Positions 20,106 to 26,918 of a DNA stretch of 41,553 nt are shown here, in pieces (position 1 is the first letter of the stretch; every line of letters starts with the position of its first letter). A program made the position numbers and the translations under genes. Under the pieces are notes generated by a model that saw nothing but the letters and a program-made list of their open reading frames with translations, was not told the origin of the DNA and did not search any database. The stretch lies in assembly GCA_022825725.1 (NCBI GenBank), contig JAJDWE010000049.1, positions 1 through 41,553 on the forward strand, in the 5' to 3' direction. Source of the DNA: Gemmatimonadota bacterium. Its GTDB lineage: Bacteria > Gemmatimonadota > Gemmatimonadetes > Palauibacterales > Palauibacteraceae.

Positions 20106-20111
20106 TTGACA
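20106..20111 (+). promoter_or_regulatory. candidate -35 box of the his operon
   Basis: TTGACA is a perfect sigma-70-type -35 hexamer. With 17-bp spacing the -10 would be GATCCT (20129-20134), a poor match, and transcription would begin near 20141, only a base or two before the leader peptide ATG. An alternative -10-like TAGCAT lies at 20094-20099. The exact start of transcription is open. Confidence 0.3.
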
Positions 20112-20142
20112 GGCAAGCGGCAGAGTGCGATCCTCCGCGGCC

Positions 20143-20205
20143 ATGACGAACACCCATGCGTTTTTTCGCCATTATTACTACCATCGCCCGAGCGGAGGCC
20201 GGTGA
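20143..20205 (+). CDS. hisL: his operon leader peptide (attenuator peptide)
   Basis: A 20-codon reading frame, ATG at 20143 to TGA at 20203-20205, too short for normal gene finding. The peptide contains THAFFRHYYYHR: three His (codons at 20155, 20170 and 20182), three Tyr and two Phe in 20 residues. All three His codons are CAT and both Phe codons TTT, which are uncommon choices in this GC-rich genome and create a visibly AT-rich patch. It is followed by mutually exclusive RNA structures ending in an intrinsic terminator, then by hisG. This is the layout of translation-coupled attenuation: a ribosome stalling at the His codons when charged His-tRNA is scarce leaves the end of the leader free to form the anti-terminator. 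There is no clear Shine-Dalgarno; if the TTGACA promoter is used the transcript would be nearly leaderless. Confidence 0.8.
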   Translation: MTNTHAFFRHYYYHRPSGGR

Positions 20206-20253
20206 TCGTCTAGCTTTGTCCTGAACCAAGGTTGCGAACGATCGACGCCGGCC
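20197..20253 (+). promoter_or_regulatory. anti-terminator pairing of the his attenuator
   Basis: GGCCGG at 20197-20202 is complementary to CCGGCC at 20248-20253, and GATCGT at 20204-20209 is complementary to ACGATC at 20238-20243. Both pairs are collinear, giving a 12-bp helix with a small internal loop, extendable by GG 20194-20195 with CC 20254-20255 past a bulged A. The 5' half covers the last codons and the stop of the leader peptide; the 3' half uses the 5' arm of the terminator, so the two structures exclude each other. A ribosome at the leader stop codon would block this helix and permit termination. Confidence 0.72.
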
Positions 20254-20275
20254 CCGAGGGGGTCGGCTTTTTTTT
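20247..20275 (+). terminator. intrinsic terminator of the his attenuator
   Basis: A 9-bp stem GCCGGCCCC (20247-20255) with GGGGTCGGC (20259-20267), one G-U pair, closed by the 3-nt loop GAG and followed at once by eight T (20268-20275). It ends 39 nt before the hisG start and 42 nt after the leader peptide stop, so its purpose is control of the operon rather than ending an upstream gene; the upstream gene runs the other way. Confidence 0.88.
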
Positions 20276-20293: not shown

Positions 20294-20310
20294 GTCGGCC
20301 AAGAGCCGAC
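20294..20310 (+). promoter_or_regulatory. hairpin just upstream of hisG start
   Basis: GTCGGC (20294-20299), loop CCAAG/A, GCCGAC (20305-20310) forms a 6-bp stem ending 4 nt before the hisG ATG. The same GCCGAC can also pair with the 3' arm of the terminator (GTCGGC at 20262-20267). It covers the position where a Shine-Dalgarno would lie; none is visible for hisG. It may add a translational control step. Confidence 0.4.
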
Positions 20311-20314
20311 GACA

Positions 20315-21178
20315 ATGACCCACGAAACGACAAGACTCGCCCTTCCGAAGGGACGCATGCAGGCCGGCGTACTCGACCTGTTGACCGCCGCCGGCGTGCG
20401 CGTGGACCTGGGAGAGCGCCGTTACCGTCCGTCCATCTCCGTGGCCGGATTCAGCGCCAAGCTGCTCAAGCCGCAGAACGTGGTGGAGATGCTCCACGCC
20501 GGCTCGCGCGACGTGGGGTTCGCGGGAGCGGACTGGGTTGCGGAACTGGACGGAGCGCTCGTTGAACTGCTCGATACCGGCCTCGATCCGGTGCGGGTCG
20601 TGGCGGCGGCGCCCGTCTCCGTGGCGCAGCGAGGGCTGACGCCGGGAGTGCCCCTCACCGTGGCCTCCGAGTACCGGCGTCTCACGTCGCGCTGGATCGA
20701 GGCGCGCGGACTCGACGCCACCTTCGTTCGATCCTACGGCGCCACGGAAGTGTTCCCGCCCGAAGACGCCGACGTGATCGTCGACAACACCGCCACCGGC
20801 GCCACGCTGGAGGCCAACGGCCTCGAGATCGTGGACGAGGTCATGCGTTCCTCGACTCGATTCTATGCGAACCCGCGTGCCCTCGACGACGCGCGGCACC
20901 GGGAGCGGATCGAAGACCTCGTTCTGGTGCTCGAATCCGTGATCGAGGCCCGGCGGCGGGTGATGCTCGAACTCAATGTGGACGCCGGGGGGCTGGACGA
21001 TCTCGTGGCGGTCCTTCCGTGCATGCGCAGGCCGACGGTATCGCGTCTGCACGGGGACGGGGGGTACGCGATTCGCGTTGCGGTGCTCCGGGACGCCCTG
21101 CCGACGTTGATTCCGCTGGTGAAGGCGCGCGGGGGCACGGATCTCGTCGTGACCGCACCGGGGCAGATCGTCGCATGA
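20315..21178 (+). CDS. hisG: ATP phosphoribosyltransferase, long form
   Basis: 287 residues; catalyses the first and feedback-regulated step of histidine synthesis, joining ATP and PRPP. The N-terminus RLALPKGRM and the segments DVGFAGADWV, SYGATEVFPPEDADVIVDNTATGATLEANGL match HisG; the D-x-x-x-D-x-x-x-T-G-x-T/A-L motif binds the PRPP phosphate. The C-terminal part (about 215-287: MLELNVDAGGLDDLVAVLPCMRRPTVSRL) is the regulatory ACT-like domain of long-form HisG, so no separate hisZ is needed. It is the first structural gene after the attenuator. Start ATG 20315 lacks a clear Shine-Dalgarno. The stop TGA (21176-21178) overlaps the hisC start by ATGA. Confidence 0.95.
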   Translation: MTHETTRLALPKGRMQAGVLDLLTAAGVRVDLGERRYRPSISVAGFSAKLLKPQNVVEMLHAGSRDVGFAGADWVAELDGALVELLDTGLDPVRVVAAAPVSVAQRGLTPGVPLTVASEYRRLTSRWIEARGLDATFVRSYGATEVFPPEDADVIVDNTATGATLEANGLEIVDEVMRSSTRFYANPRALDDARHRERIEDLVLVLESVIEARRRVMLELNVDAGGLDDLVAVLPCMRRPTVSRLHGDGGYAIRVAVLRDALPTLIPLVKARGGTDLVVTAPGQIVA

Positions 21179-22218
21179 GCCGCGCGGCGGTTAAGGTCCG
21201 GGCCGACGAGTTGCTGAGACTCGACCACAACGAGCGTCTCTTCCCGGCGCCCGAACTCGTCCCTCTCCTCGCCCGCGTGCCGGCGACGGCGCTGACGCGA
21301 TACCCGGACGCCGGTGGGCTGGAGCGACGTCTGGCCCGCCGTTGGGGCGTCGGAGCCGATCGCGTCCTCGTCACCGGCGGCGCGGACGACGCCATCGACC
21401 GCATCTGCAGGCGATGGCTCGCCGGCGGCAGGGAGATGGTCACCGTGGTGCCGACGTTCCAGATGATGCCGGCCTGCGCCCGGCTCGCGGGCGGACGCGT
21501 GCGCGAGATCCCCACGCTGGACGATCCCGCCCCGCTGGAACCGACGCTCGACCGGCTCGGCGAGCGGACCGGACTCGTGACGGTGATCTCCCCTCACAAT
21601 CCCACGGGCCGGGTCGCTTCCGCCGCGCGGATGCTGCAAATCGCGGAGCGACTGCCGAACGGCGCGATGCTGCTCGCCGACCTCGCGTACGTGGAGTTCG
21701 CCGATCGCGATCCGACGGCGGCGCTCCTGGAGCGCGACAACATCCTCGTGGTGCGGACGCTCTCGAAGGCGTGGGGGCTCGCGGGGCTTCGCGTGGGCTA
21801 CGTGGTGGGGTCGCGGACGGCGATCGCCGCGGTGCGGGCCTCGGGATCCCCGTTTCCGCTCTCGAGCCCGTCGGTCTGGCTCGCGGAAAGGGCGCTGGAA
21901 CTCGGCGACCGGATCACGGCGGACTACGTGGCGGCGGTCCGATCCGAACGGGATCGGCTTTACGCGGCGCTCTGCGAAGCGGGGACGGCGCCGTTGGCCT
22001 CGGAGGCGAACTTCATCCTCGCCTCCACGGAACATGCGGCGGCGCTGGAGCGCCGATTCCGACGGTCCGGGATCGCGGTACGCCTCTTCGCGGACCGGCG
22101 GGATCTGGTCCGCATCACCCTTCCCGGGGACGAGGGTGTGTTCCAACGCCTTCTTTCGGTAATCGCCGCGGACGCCCCGGCCGCGGCTTCGACCATCAAC
22201 GGAAGAGGAGTTCGATGA
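21175..22218 (+). CDS. hisC: histidinol-phosphate aminotransferase
   Basis: 347 residues, class I/II PLP aminotransferase that converts imidazole-acetol phosphate to histidinol phosphate. The short N-terminus with LDHNERLFPAP is typical of HisC; HNPTG (141-145), D169 in LLADLAYVEF, the PLP lysine K198 in RTLSKAWGLAGLRVGY and R346-equivalent LVRITLPGDE follow. The start overlaps the hisG stop by 4 nt (ATGA) and its end overlaps hisB in the same way. HisC enzymes can often also transaminate aromatic 2-oxo acids; the presence of Tyr and Phe codons in the operon leader makes that worth noting here. Confidence 0.94.
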   Translation: MSRAAVKVRADELLRLDHNERLFPAPELVPLLARVPATALTRYPDAGGLERRLARRWGVGADRVLVTGGADDAIDRICRRWLAGGREMVTVVPTFQMMPACARLAGGRVREIPTLDDPAPLEPTLDRLGERTGLVTVISPHNPTGRVASAARMLQIAERLPNGAMLLADLAYVEFADRDPTAALLERDNILVVRTLSKAWGLAGLRVGYVVGSRTAIAAVRASGSPFPLSSPSVWLAERALELGDRITADYVAAVRSERDRLYAALCEAGTAPLASEANFILASTEHAAALERRFRRSGIAVRLFADRRDLVRITLPGDEGVFQRLLSVIAADAPAAASTINGRGVR

Positions 22219-22889
22219 GCGCCGACGATGGTGCCCCCCGTACGGGGGAACGAACGCGGGAGACGCTCGAGACCCGCGTGGAGGCACGAGTGAACGTGGA
22301 CAGCCGCGGACCGAGTCGCGTGCAGACGGGTTTGCCCTTCCTCGATCACATGATCGGAGCCGCCGCCTTCCACGGCGGGATGACGCTGGACCTCCGCGCC
22401 CGCGGAGACCTGGACGTCGACGATCACCACACGGTGGAGGACTGCGGACTCGTCTTCGGCTCCGCGCTGAGGGACGCGCTGGGGGAGAGGCGGGGGATCC
22501 GGCGTTTCGGCTACGCCTACGCGCCTCTCGACGAGGCGCTCGCGCGAGCGGTGGTGGATCTCTCCGGCCGGCCGTTCGCCGCCGTGGATCTGGGACTTCG
22601 GCGGGAGATGCTGGGAACCGTGGCGACGGAGAATCTGAGCCATTTCTTCATGTCGTTCGCGACCGCGGCACGCCTCACGCTGCACCTCGACGTGATCCGG
22701 GGAGACAACGACCACCACCGCGCCGAGGCCGCGTTCAAGGCCTTCGGGCTGGCCCTCGCCGAGGCGGTCGGTCGACGCGCCGCGACCGGGATCCCGAGTA
22801 CGAAGGGGATCCTGGATTCGGGTGAGGACCCCGATGCGCAGGCCGGGAAGGACTCGAGGGTGGAGATCCTCGAGACGGTGTCGCCATGA
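22215..22889 (+). CDS. hisB: imidazoleglycerol-phosphate dehydratase (monofunctional)
   Basis: 224 residues. The manganese-binding repeats are clear: FLDHM (42-46) with DDHHTVED (69-76), and again DNDHHRAEAAFKA (164-176), plus the C-terminal STKGIL. It lacks the N-terminal histidinol-phosphatase domain found in E. coli HisB, so the phosphatase step must be supplied elsewhere. A strong Shine-Dalgarno (GAAGAGGAG) lies 6-8 nt upstream inside hisC. Start and stop both use ATGA overlaps with neighbours. Confidence 0.95.
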   Translation: MSADDGAPRTGERTRETLETRVEARVNVDSRGPSRVQTGLPFLDHMIGAAAFHGGMTLDLRARGDLDVDDHHTVEDCGLVFGSALRDALGERRGIRRFGYAYAPLDEALARAVVDLSGRPFAAVDLGLRREMLGTVATENLSHFFMSFATAARLTLHLDVIRGDNDHHRAEAAFKAFGLALAEAVGRRAATGIPSTKGILDSGEDPDAQAGKDSRVEILETVSP

Positions 22890-23566
22890 CTGCCGCCCGC
22901 ATCGGAACGGGAGGGGAAGTCGGCATCGTCCCCACCGGCGTGGCGAATCTCGAAGCCGTCCGGTCGGCCTTCAGGCGGCTCGGGCGGACGCCGCGGGTCC
23001 TGGATTCGGCGGTCGACATCGAGCGTGCGGAGTACGTCGTCCTGCCCGGCGTCGGGTCGTTCGCCGACGGCATGGCCGAGTTGCGGCGCCGGGGCTGGGA
23101 GGAGGCGCTGCGCCGCCGTGTCGAATCGCTCCGGCCCACGCTGGGAATCTGTCTCGGGTTGCAGTTGTTGTGCGACGCGAGCGACGAGGCTCCCGGCACT
23201 CCCGGGCTCGGCTGCGTTTCGGGGCGGGCGGTGCGGCTCGCCGGCGCCGGCCGCGTACCCCAGTTGGGGTGGAACCGTATTGCGGCCCCGACCGCGGCCG
23301 TCTTCCTGCGCCCGGGCATCGTCTACTTCGCCAACTCCTATCGGCTGGAAGAGGTTCCGGCGGGCTGGACGGGGGCGACCGGCCGCCACGGGACCCGCTT
23401 CGTCGCCGGGTTCGAGCGCGGCGGGGTCCTCGCGTGCCAGTTCCATCCGGAGTTGTCGGGACGGATCGGCGCTGCCTTGCTGAACCGCTGGCTCGAGGAG
23501 GCTCCGGCGGCGGCGGAGGCCTCGGAGGGGATGACGGATCGGGCCCGCATGGCGGCCGCGTGCTGA
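22886..23566 (+). CDS. hisH: imidazole glycerol phosphate synthase, glutaminase subunit
   Basis: 226 residues. It releases ammonia from glutamine for HisF. The class I amidotransferase triad is present: C89 in LGICLGLQLL, H187 and E189 in ACQFHPELSG. PGVGSFADGM forms the oxyanion-side loop. The usual YFVHSY is YFANSY here (about 147-152), a substitution near the active site that is not part of the triad. The start overlaps the hisB stop by ATGA; the hisF start lies 7 nt inside its 3' end. The last 20 residues are low-complexity and probably a free tail. Confidence 0.94.
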   Translation: MTAARIGTGGEVGIVPTGVANLEAVRSAFRRLGRTPRVLDSAVDIERAEYVVLPGVGSFADGMAELRRRGWEEALRRRVESLRPTLGICLGLQLLCDASDEAPGTPGLGCVSGRAVRLAGAGRVPQLGWNRIAAPTAAVFLRPGIVYFANSYRLEEVPAGWTGATGRHGTRFVAGFERGGVLACQFHPELSGRIGAALLNRWLEEAPAAAEASEGMTDRARMAAAC

Positions 23567-24327
23567 ACGTCCGCGTCATCCCGTGCCTCGACGTGAAGGA
23601 CGGCCGGGTCGTGAAGGGGATCCGCTTCGCGAATCTCGCGGACCAGGGCGATCCGGCGGCTCTGGCTCGGCGCTACGAGCGGCAGGGCGCGGATGAGATC
23701 GTCATCCTCGATGTGTCGGCGACGGCGGACGGACGGCTGGCGCGGTTCGAGACGATCGGCCGCGTGCGGGACGAGATCTCGATCCCGCTCACGGTCGGGG
23801 GCGGCGTGCGGACGGTGGAGGACGGGGGCGCCCTGCTGCAGGCGGGCGCGGACCGGGTGTCGGTGAACACCGCGGCCGTCGAGCAGCCCGAGCTTCTCGC
23901 GGGACTGTCGTCGCGCTTCGGTGCCCAGTGCGCGGTTCTCGCGCTGGATGCCGCGCGGGCGCCCTCCAACGGCTTTCCGAGCGGCTTCGAGGTCCTGACC
24001 CACTCGGGGAGCAACCGCACCGGGCTCGACGCGGCGGAATGGGCCCGGAAGGCGACGGAGAGGGGGGCCGGAGAGATCCTGCTCACGAGCTTCGACCGCG
24101 ACGGGACGCGCAGCGGCTACGACCTGGCGCTGATCGGGGCGATCCGCGAGGCCGTGCCGGTGCCGATCGTGGCCTCCGGAGGTGGTGCGCACCCCGGCCA
24201 CATGCGCGCCGCGGTGGACGCGGGTGCTGACGCGGTGCTCGCGGCGTCGATCTTCCACCAGGGCGACTGGTCGATCGGCAGGCTCAAGGATCGACTTCAG
24301 CAGCTCGGCGTCGCGGTGCGTCGATGA
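23560..24327 (+). CDS. hisF: imidazole glycerol phosphate synthase, cyclase subunit
   Basis: 255 residues, TIM barrel. It uses ammonia from HisH to form imidazole glycerol phosphate and AICAR. Catalytic D11 (RVIPCLDVKDGRVVKG) and D130 (AVLALDAAR) are present, with the phosphate-binding TVGGGVRT and the second-half LLTSFDRDGTRSGYD and ASGGGAHP. GTG 23560 is chosen because it is the only start codon in frame just before the conserved N-terminus; it overlaps hisH by 7 nt. The stop overlaps the start of the fused gene by ATGA. Confidence 0.95.
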   Translation: MLNVRVIPCLDVKDGRVVKGIRFANLADQGDPAALARRYERQGADEIVILDVSATADGRLARFETIGRVRDEISIPLTVGGGVRTVEDGGALLQAGADRVSVNTAAVEQPELLAGLSSRFGAQCAVLALDAARAPSNGFPSGFEVLTHSGSNRTGLDAAEWARKATERGAGEILLTSFDRDGTRSGYDLALIGAIREAVPVPIVASGGGAHPGHMRAAVDAGADAVLAASIFHQGDWSIGRLKDRLQQLGVAVRR

Positions 24328-26918
24328 TCATCCCATCCATCGACCTCATGGGCGGGCGGGCCGTACAGCTTCGGCAGGGCGCCACGCTTGAAATCGACGC
24401 GGGCGATCCGCGCCCTCTCGCGGAGAGGTTCGCGGTCGCGGGGGAAGTCGCGATCATCGATCTCGATGCCGCTCTCGGCCGCGGAGACAACGCCGCCCTC
24501 ATCAGGGAACTGCTGCCGCTCGCACCGTGTCGGGTAGGCGGCGGCATTCGGTCCCGCGAGGCGGCGCTCGATTGGCTCGACGCGGGGGCGCGGCGGGTGA
24601 TCCTGGGCACGGCGGCGAATCCCGAGCTCCTCGGCGGACTTCCGGCCCAGCGCGTGATCGCCGCGCTCGACGCGCGCGATGGCGAGGTCGTCGTCGAGGG
24701 CTGGCGGCGCGGAACGGGTCGCGGCGTCATCGGGCGGATGGAGGAGCTCGATGGTCTCGCGGGCGGCTACCTGGTCACCTTCGTGGAGGTCGAAGGCACG
24801 CTGGGCGGGATCCCGCTGGATCGCGTCCCCGCCCTCGTCGCGGCTGCGGGATCCGCCCGCGTCACGGTGGCGGGGGGCGTCCGCGAGGTTTCGGAGATCG
24901 CGGCGCTCGACCGAATGGGCGCGGACGCGCAGGTGGGGATGGCGATCTACAGCGGACGCATGGAGCTGGGCGACGCGATCGCGGCTCCGCTGAACTCCGA
25001 CCGGGCCGACGGACTTTGGGCGACGGTGGTCGAGGACACGGGCGGGCGCGCGCTCGGGCTCGCATGGTCGAGCGCGGAGAGCCTCCGCACCGCGGTCAGG
25101 GAACGGCGCGGCGTCTACCAGAGCCGCTCACGGGGGCTGTGGAGGAAGGGTGAGACGTCCGGCGCCACACAGGAACTCGTCCGGGTGGCGGCGGACTGTG
25201 ACCGCGACACGCTGCGCTTCACGGTGCGACAGCACGGGACCGGCTTCTGTCACACGGGCACCCGGACGTGTTTCGACGATCCGGCCGACCTCGAGGCCCG
25301 CCTGCGCGAGCGGCTTGCCGACCCCGAGCCGGGCTCGCTCACCGCACGGCTCGCCGGGGATCCGGAACTGTTGCGGGGGAAACTCGTCGAGGAAGCGCAG
25401 GAACTGGCCGAAGCCGGATCGAAGGCGGACGCGGTGGCGGAGTTCGCGGACCTCTACTACTTCGCCCTCACGCGGCTCCTGAAGGCTGGCGGCTCCCTCG
25501 AAGATGTACGTCTCGAACTCGACCGGCGCGCCCTCAAGGTGCGTCGTCGAGCCCCGAGGCCGCCGGGGGGGGCGACCGGTCGGACGGCTTCGGCTCCCGC
25601 CGCCGTGGCGGGCGGGATCCTGCCGCCGATCGGCCTCGATGAGGCGGTGCGGGCGGTGCGCTCGCCGGCGCTCGATCGGGCGGCCCTCGAGGTCGCGCGG
25701 ACGATCCTGGACGATGTCGAGCGGCGCGGGGAGCCGGCGCTCCGCGAGCACGCCGAGCGGTTCGGCGACCTCGAGCCGGGCGACGATCTGCTCCTCGACC
25801 GGCCGGCTCTCGAGCGCGCGGCGGAAGCACTGCATGCCGACGACCGCGAGCTGCTGCACCGCGTAGCGGACCGGATCCGCGCGTTCGCGGAGGCCCAGCG
25901 GGCATCCGCGACCGACCTTGAGACGCCGGTCGCGGGCGGTCGCGGCGGCCATCGGCTCGTGCCCGTCGGAGCGGCGGGCTGCTACGCGCCCGGCGGCCGC
26001 TTCCCCCTCCCGTCCTCGGTCCTCATGACCGCCATCCCCGCGAGGGTGGCGGGCGTGGACGACGTGTGGGCCGCATCGCCGCGCCCGACCGCGGCGGTCC
26101 AAGCCGCGGCCTTCATCGCCGGCGCGGACGGCCTGCTGGCCATCGGCGGCGCGCAGGCGATCGGCGCGCTCGCCTTCGGCGTCGGAGGCGTCTCCCGCTG
26201 CGAGAAGATCGTGGGGCCGGGCAACCGGTTCGTCACCGCGGCCAAGCGCCTCCTCTACGGCCGGGTCGGCCTCGACACCATCGCCGGCCCATCCGAACTG
26301 CTCGTCGTCGCCTCGCCGGATGCGGAGCCGGCGCGCGTCGCGGCCGACCTGCTCGCCCAGGCCGAGCACGACCCCGACGCCGTCCCGCTTCTGTGCGCCT
26401 TCAACGAAGCGACCGTCGAGGCCGTGCGCGAAGAGACCGAGCGGCAGCTGGCCGCGCTCCCGACCGCACCGATCGCGCGTCAGGCCCTGGCGGCCGGCGG
26501 CGCCCTCCTCGCGGCCGGCCCCGACGAGGCCGCCGCCATCTGCGACGCGGTGGCCCCGGAACACCTGCACCTGCACGGCGAGCGGGCCGAGGCGCTGGCT
26601 CCGCGCGTGCACCGCTACGGATCGCTCTTCATGGGAGCGGCCACACCCGAGGCGGCCGGCGACTACGGAGCCGGACCGAACCATACGCTTCCCACCTCGG
26701 GCGCCGCGGCGTTCGACTCGGGACTCTCCGTGTTCTCGTTCCTGCGCCGGCCGACGTGGCTGTCGCTTTCGTCCGACGATGACGCCTACGAGGACCTGCT
26801 GCGGGACACCGCCGCGCTCGCCCGACTGGAGGGACTGGAAGCGCACGCGCTTTCGGCGGAACTCCGGCTCACGGCGGCGGTCCGGGGAGATCGCCGTCGG
26901 AGGGTCCGCGCCTCGTAA
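24324..26918 (+). CDS. hisAIED: four-domain histidine enzyme: HisA-HisI-HisE-HisD fusion
   Basis: 864 residues in one uninterrupted frame. HisA isomerase, about 1-222: IPSIDLMGG with D7, RVGGGIR, ALDARDG with D116, and TFVEVEGTLGGI in place of the common TDIxxDGT. HisI cyclohydrolase, about 225-320: YQSRSRGLWRKGETSGATQE, DCDRDT (291-296), GFCHTGTRTCF. HisE pyrophosphohydrolase, about 323-407: KLVEEAQEL and EFADLYYFAL, the Mg-binding Glu/Asp helices. HisD dehydrogenase, about 430-855: GGAQAIGALAFG, GPGN, Q679 and H682 in AQAEHD, APEHLHL with E746/H747, GDYGAGPNHTLPT with D780, and H841. All four active sites look intact. The HisI-HisE-HisD order, joined directly, is that of fungal HIS4, and the text is strikingly like it. 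It is the last gene of the operon and overlaps the convergent small membrane protein gene by 50 nt. Confidence 0.93.
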   Translation: MIIPSIDLMGGRAVQLRQGATLEIDAGDPRPLAERFAVAGEVAIIDLDAALGRGDNAALIRELLPLAPCRVGGGIRSREAALDWLDAGARRVILGTAANPELLGGLPAQRVIAALDARDGEVVVEGWRRGTGRGVIGRMEELDGLAGGYLVTFVEVEGTLGGIPLDRVPALVAAAGSARVTVAGGVREVSEIAALDRMGADAQVGMAIYSGRMELGDAIAAPLNSDRADGLWATVVEDTGGRALGLAWSSAESLRTAVRERRGVYQSRSRGLWRKGETSGATQELVRVAADCDRDTLRFTVRQHGTGFCHTGTRTCFDDPADLEARLRERLADPEPGSLTARLAGDPELLRGKLVEEAQELAEAGSKADAVAEFADLYYFALTRLLKAGGSLEDVRLELDRRALKVRRRAPRPPGGATGRTASAPAAVAGGILPPIGLDEAVRAVRSPALDRAALEVARTILDDVERRGEPALREHAERFGDLEPGDDLLLDRPALERAAEALHADDRELLHRVADRIRAFAEAQRASATDLETPVAGGRGGHRLVPVGAAGCYAPGGRFPLPSSVLMTAIPARVAGVDDVWAASPRPTAAVQAAAFIAGADGLLAIGGAQAIGALAFGVGGVSRCEKIVGPGNRFVTAAKRLLYGRVGLDTIAGPSELLVVASPDAEPARVAADLLAQAEHDPDAVPLLCAFNEATVEAVREETERQLAALPTAPIARQALAAGGALLAAGPDEAAAICDAVAPEHLHLHGERAEALAPRVHRYGSLFMGAATPEAAGDYGAGPNHTLPTSGAAAFDSGLSVFSFLRRPTWLSLSSDDDAYEDLLRDTAALARLEGLEAHALSAELRLTAAVRGDRRRRVRAS

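Follow-up and report, generated by a model that had tools for sequence, protein, structure and literature searches.

The DNA analysed here (the window, a whole stretch of 41,553 nucleotides) belongs to an uncultured marine bacterium of the genus Candidatus Palauibacter (Gemmatimonadota), near-identical hisG loci carrying the names Gemmatimonadetes bacterium or Candidatus Palauibacter; the order Palauibacterales has been described previously (PMC10469786). On the forward strand the window encodes a complete his operon, consisting of hisG in its long form with a C-terminal domain (20315-21178; TIGR00070 and TIGR03455, both above cut-off), a hisC-like aminotransferase gene (21175-22218), for which the best NCBIfam model is that of hisC (TIGR01141), at 209 bits and thus below the cut-off of 277, hisB (22218-22889, start approximate), hisH (22886-23566; TIGR01855), hisF (23563-24327; TIGR00735) and, as the last his gene, a fusion of hisA, hisI, hisE and hisD (24324-26918), with four Pfam domains in one frame of 864 amino acids. 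The same single frame is found in five other Palauibacter genomes and is absent from two genomes of other families. Two further HisC-like aminotransferases, with signal-like N-termini, are encoded on other contigs of this genome (C74 and C1; loci L038 and L042). The gene upstream of the operon is divergent, and a short leader with an intrinsic terminator is placed between the two, the terminator ending 39 nt before hisG. A perfect 6-bp hairpin, GTCGGC-CAAGA-GCCGAC (20294-20310), lies downstream of the terminator and ahead of hisG, with a purine-rich stretch in its loop close to the start codon, and its register is not kept among relatives.

The leader contains an open reading frame for a peptide, MTNTHAFFRHYYYHRPSGGR (20143-20205, forward strand), which by direct reading starts with ATG at 20143 and runs for 20 codons to a TGA at 20203-20205. 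Three of these codons, 5, 10 and 14 (20155-20157, 20170-20172 and 20182-20184), specify histidine, as the preliminary description had reported, and all of its coordinates hold. A run of His codons is typical of described his leaders, and the mechanism does not require one. Such a run is not present in the window, where the core of the peptide reads H.FF.HYYYH; within the genus, HH occurs in two loci (G321 and G042), and otherwise consecutive His residues are found only in other genera. A longer frame, from a GTG at 20125, was considered and rejected, as a 1-nt deletion in G042 breaks it and leaves the ATG frame intact. By itself, the frame is modestly improbable, with 5% of shuffled upstream regions yielding a frame with at least three His in 10 residues.

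Downstream of this frame, two alternative hairpins can be drawn. The terminator (20247-20275) that had been described as a hairpin followed by eight T is confirmed: a 9-bp stem with a 3-nt loop (20247-20267) precedes TTTTTTTT (20268-20275), the fold having an energy of -18.8 kcal/mol (z -3.95). The alternative helix that had been placed at 20197-20209/20238-20253 is equally well founded, pairing 20197-20203 with 20247-20253 and 20204-20209 with 20238-20243 (13 bp), with an apical stem continuing beyond these pairs. Folded alone, this antiterminator (20197-20253) reaches -28.0 kcal/mol (z -4.1), a value equaled by none of 200 shuffles, and its start lies 13 nt beyond the last His codon, in agreement with the preliminary description. 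As it shares the 5' arm of the terminator (region 3), the two pairings are mutually exclusive by computation. The other arm of the antiterminator, region 2 (GGCCGGTGATCGTC, 20197-20210), overlaps the leader stop codon. Its positions 20201-20210 also pair, at nine of ten positions, with region 1 (GACGAACACC, 20145-20154), at the beginning of the leader frame, and this helix 1:2 is the minimum free energy (MFE) structure of 20143-20215. Among all windows of the leader, region 1 is the best pairing partner of region 2, a result matched in 2% of shuffles. In these folding models, the protector helix, examined within Palauibacter, completes the classical design of an attenuator. Inner hairpins of the leader are either invariant or not conserved, and no role was assigned to them. 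The MFE of the entire leader was set aside as proof, its z-score of only -1.7 to -1.8 being too weak. The protector helix was absent from the preliminary description, as were the promoter and five Phe/Tyr codons, which are treated below.

The candidate promoter consists of a -35 hexamer, TTGACA (20106-20111), the only such pattern match anywhere in the window and invariant in 14 of 14 Palauibacter loci, and, after a spacer of 17 nt, a weak -10 element, GATCCT (20129-20134), which matches TATAAT at three of six positions and is conserved in 13 Palauibacter loci. In the window, the -35 hexamer lies at -37 from the leader ATG. This distance is kept far beyond the genus: of 100 leaders from across the phylum, 91 possess a TTGACA-like hexamer (at least five of six matches) 30-46 nt before the ATG, and 88% possess one at -35 to -40, versus 1.4% in shuffled sequences, and the same spacing is seen in most other phyla looked at. 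As a standard promoter with its -35 element fixed at this distance would have transcription begin on the ATG or right next to it, the predicted transcription start is at about 20141-20143, and the leader RNA is probably leaderless. The window shows no Shine-Dalgarno sequence ahead of the leader frame. A scan of the genome with one promoter pattern returned 17 places, and a T-run following a short open reading frame was found only at the his leader.

We searched for hisG in all 17 Palauibacter genomes and found it in 14. The remaining three (G089, G324 and G334), at 85-93% completeness, produced no hisG match and may have lost histidine synthesis. The leader is present in all 14 hisG loci, with the leader frame, the His codons and regions 2 and 3 maintained, in part excepting G321, the most divergent Palauibacter locus, which has another leader start and an HLYHH core. 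In 13 of the loci none of the His codons is replaced. The invariant or near-invariant blocks of the alignment are TTGACA, the leader start, the His codons, GGCCGGTGATCGT in region 2, GCGAACGATCGA.GCCGGCC in region 3, and the terminator. Positions 20197-20209 are identical in the 13 aligned sequences, and position 20210 differs only in G321, whose differing leader start nevertheless pairs with region 2, so that helix 1:2 is kept. Variation in the terminator mainly turns G-T into G-C pairs, and G042 has a shifted register. Compensatory changes in the antiterminator, for which an alignment of relatives had been recommended, were not found: all 13 core pairs are the same throughout 13 Palauibacter sequences, a constancy that speaks neither for nor against the helix. 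Conservation in close relatives had also been asked for, and it is seen for the frame of the leader, for its His codons and for the terminator. It is because of conservation, within the genus and beyond it, and not because of the statistics of the open reading frame or of the whole-leader fold, that we judge the arrangement to exceed chance.

Similar leaders are widespread in the phylum. hisG was searched for in 395 Gemmatimonadota genomes; the comparison across the phylum covers 115 upstream regions, of which 100 contain a short open reading frame with at least three His in 10 residues (5% of shuffles), 86 one with at least four (0.3% of shuffles) and 74 one with at least five (none of 2300 shuffles). 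Typical peptides are MNTRTHTPTHHHHGHREAVV or MTNLIHARHHHHHATSTGGERLL, with HHHAHH-type leaders in the other genera of the Palauibacter family, and 92 of the 100 leaders are followed by a terminator 20-43 nt past the leader stop codon. No His-rich leader was recognized in 15 of the 115 loci, among them all five from the phylum's other class; within the class sampled, upstream regions of this kind are those of L173, L174, L177 and L192 (genus g43) and of L058, L066, L083, L190 and L209. Judging from these sequences, his attenuators appear to be close to universal in the Gemmatimonadota class sampled. Leaders with His codons are also found before similar hisG genes in Acidobacteriota, Planctomycetota (Phycisphaerae), Myxococcota and Armatimonadota, and these too appear to be leaderless. 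Among the His-rich leader frames in metagenome-assembled genomes of other phyla (L101-L171; for example L116, L120, L155, L107 and L115), most have a TTGACA-like -35 element at -35 to -38.

The helix had been proposed to be free when a ribosome stalls at the last His codon and covered once the ribosome has reached the stop codon, and folding under a ribosome mask agrees. We measured capture, the share of the terminator 5' arm that pairs with RNA upstream of it while the 3' arm is still missing; the ribosome was taken to mask all RNA up to 12 nt beyond the start of its A-site codon. In the window, with the ribosome at the last His codon (H14), 0.97 of the 5' arm is captured, versus a shuffle mean of 0.57, and with the ribosome at the stop codon capture is 0.49, versus 0.40 in shuffles, the probability of the terminator in the latter state being 0.999. 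For the leaders of the phylum, mean capture with the ribosome at the first and the last His of the cluster is 0.72 and 0.67, respectively, versus 0.59 and 0.57 in shuffles (p 2e-10 and 5e-7), and these effects remain significant without the Palauibacter loci (p 1e-7 and 5e-4), all these p values overstating independence, as the loci are related; with the ribosome at the stop codon, capture (0.39) is not significantly different from that in shuffles (0.41). Capture thus depends on the position of the ribosome, as predicted for a ribosome-mediated attenuator. Equilibrium folding of the full stalled state was also tried as a test; it favours the terminator in most other genera and was replaced by the capture test. 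With the ribosome at H14, it leaves the terminator of the window at 0.74, and antitermination there must therefore rest on the antiterminator helix forming first, that is, on kinetics. In seven of the 13 other Palauibacter loci, terminator probability with the ribosome at the last His codon falls to about 0.07-0.1.

Taken together, we consider it very probable that the his operon is governed by a transcription attenuator of the ribosome-mediated kind. Counted against this model are the only three, non-consecutive, His codons and the weak -10 element, along with modelling in which a high fraction of control codons is stressed as important for sensitivity (PMC1183508). The lack of covariation in the antiterminator core, the terminator value of 0.74 in the window and the 15 loci lacking such a leader also count on that side. 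The stalling of ribosomes and the response to histidine are what we infer from the arrangement of codons and helices, and the sequence of events may be pictured as follows. Transcription would start at or next to the leader ATG, and a ribosome would initiate on the leaderless RNA. With charged tRNA-His plentiful, the ribosome would reach the stop codon and cover region 2, regions 3 and 4 would pair, and RNA polymerase would stop at the T-run. A ribosome stalled at one of codons 5-14 would leave region 2 free to pair with region 3, and the operon would be transcribed as no terminator forms. Were the leader left untranslated, region 1 would pair with region 2 and the terminator would form. In Palauibacter, a shortage of Phe or Tyr may also raise transcription, via the conserved Phe/Tyr codons; this is the least certain step, to which we give somewhat less than an even chance, and the rest of the scheme is independent of it.

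The Phe/Tyr codons are what sets the Palauibacter leaders apart. The stretch of control codons (20155-20184) has the order H5. F7 F8. H10 Y11 Y12 Y13 H14, with three His and five Phe/Tyr codons, all conserved. On the hisG tree, seven nonsynonymous changes were inferred at the Phe/Tyr codons, six of them exchanges between Phe and Tyr and one from Tyr to His, while third positions vary freely and the His codons keep their residue. The chance of all seven changes staying within Phe, Tyr and His is about 1-2e-5, and the Phe/Tyr codons thus look selected as such, in the place of the usual run of His codons. As a full account of this leader, the histidine sensing originally proposed may be too narrow for a set in which five of the control codons specify Phe or Tyr.

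One explanation, to which we assign close to an even probability, is that the attenuator is real and responds to histidine only, the Phe/Tyr codons serving to keep the region A/U-rich and unstructured or to set the speed of the ribosome. These codons are indeed among the A/T-rich ones in a G+C-rich genome, the exchanges between Phe and Tyr retain an A or T in the middle position, and a Tyr codon is one transition away from a His codon (CAY to TAY). In addition, a look at the window genome and three relatives revealed no aromatic-type leader ahead of pheA or the DAHP synthase genes. However, a constraint for A or T alone should yield Ile and Asn equally often, and neither appears in the six exchanges, giving p 0.016 under a stricter null model that allows only A or T at the first two positions; the observed change from Tyr to His breaks the rule of that model altogether. 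Nor does the explanation sit easily with the distribution of these residues, Phe and Tyr together averaging 4.71 in the 10-residue core of the Palauibacter leaders versus 0.09 in the 86 leaders of other genera of the phylum.

The other explanation, which we advance tentatively, is that the his attenuator of Palauibacter has evolved into a joint sensor of His, Phe and Tyr, comparable to the ilv and thr leaders with their several amino acids, in which case the operon would be induced by a lack of amino acids that none of its enzymes is known to make. Purifying selection holding codons 7, 8 and 11-13 within Phe, Tyr and His speaks for such a function, as does the geometry, in which stalling at any of codons 5-14 leaves region 2 free. 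In a published reconstruction, Tyr, Phe and His are among the most common putative auxotrophies of the Palauibacterales (PMC10469786). Loss of Phe/Tyr synthesis as the reason for the codons was considered and rejected, as prephenate dehydratase is encoded in 12 of the 13 leader-bearing genomes searched, and the presence of this enzyme along with DAHP synthases in the window genome counts against joint sensing. The sole exception is G321, without a prephenate dehydratase match, and its leader has no Phe codon, which fits joint sensing in this one case. No direct link between the operon and the aromatic amino acids was found, and the proposal that HisC is the only aromatic aminotransferase, which would explain the sensing of Tyr and Phe, is not supported, several other class I/II aminotransferases being present.

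Two further explanations would do away with the attenuator itself. That the short frame is incidental, the terminator ending an upstream or antisense transcript or the region being an unregulated spacer, could appeal to the frame alone being not very improbable, but we regard this as very unlikely, since conservation extends over 14 Palauibacter loci and about 100 leaders from across the phylum, promoter and ATG keep a fixed distance, ribosome position has its effect on capture, and the divergent upstream gene needs no terminator here. Control by a T-box, a riboswitch or a protein-binding leader, known in the case of the T-box for his genes of some Firmicutes (PMC9413887), can be practically dismissed, as neither the window nor any of 20 related loci scores above the cut-off of any Rfam family, the T-box included, relaxing the threshold to E 10 brings up nothing relevant in the leader, and the open reading frame and the helices account for the whole leader.

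The mechanism that emerges for the his operon is a classical one, and what is new is the lineage, the probably leaderless start and, in Palauibacter, the mixed set of His, Phe and Tyr codons. No report of a his attenuator in Gemmatimonadota was found in the open-access literature searched, in agreement with the preliminary description, which knew of no described case. Its statement that his attenuation is well documented in Proteobacteria is correct and incomplete, as such attenuation has already been reported outside this phylum, in Actinobacteria and Firmicutes (PMC2965389; PMC9413887), the latter including the Bacillus cereus group, Peptostreptococcaceae and Erysipelotrichales (PMC9413887) as well as leaders of hisZ and hisS (PMC2965389), and as the sampled class of Gemmatimonadota and other phyla are added here. 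Translation-coupled his attenuation is therefore not confined to Proteobacteria and some Gram-positives, and about a hundred natural leader variants are now available for studying the evolution of codon sets, with the Palauibacter leaders as a natural case in which the control codons changed amino acid and the switch was kept.

Compared to known systems, the leader most resembles HisL of Escherichia coli and Salmonella (RF00514), with a short His-codon leader before hisG, alternative antiterminator and terminator hairpins and control codons placed in the same way with respect to the antiterminator. The RF00514 covariance model itself detects neither the window sequence nor any of 20 related loci, and even at E up to 10 it does not hit the leader. 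While HisL of E. coli carries seven His codons in a row (PMC10989985), the window leader has three along with the five Phe/Tyr codons, and, unlike the E. coli and Salmonella attenuator, it appears to be leaderless and possesses a simpler set of helices. The his attenuators of Firmicutes likewise combine a His leader peptide with a terminator and an antiterminator outside Proteobacteria, but their peptides contain runs of three to five His codons (PMC9413887), and they differ in phylum and in sequence. The start of the leader RNA at the leader ATG, as predicted for Palauibacter, has a precedent in trpL of Sinorhizobium meliloti (PMC7298713), an alphaproteobacterial leader that serves tryptophan and trpE(G) and whose 5' end has been mapped. 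Mixed sets of control codons likewise have precedents. Among enterobacteria, the ilvGMEDA and thr leaders contain several kinds of control codon each. There the amino acids share the pathway of the operon, whereas His and Phe/Tyr do not, except for a possible overlap at the aminotransferase.
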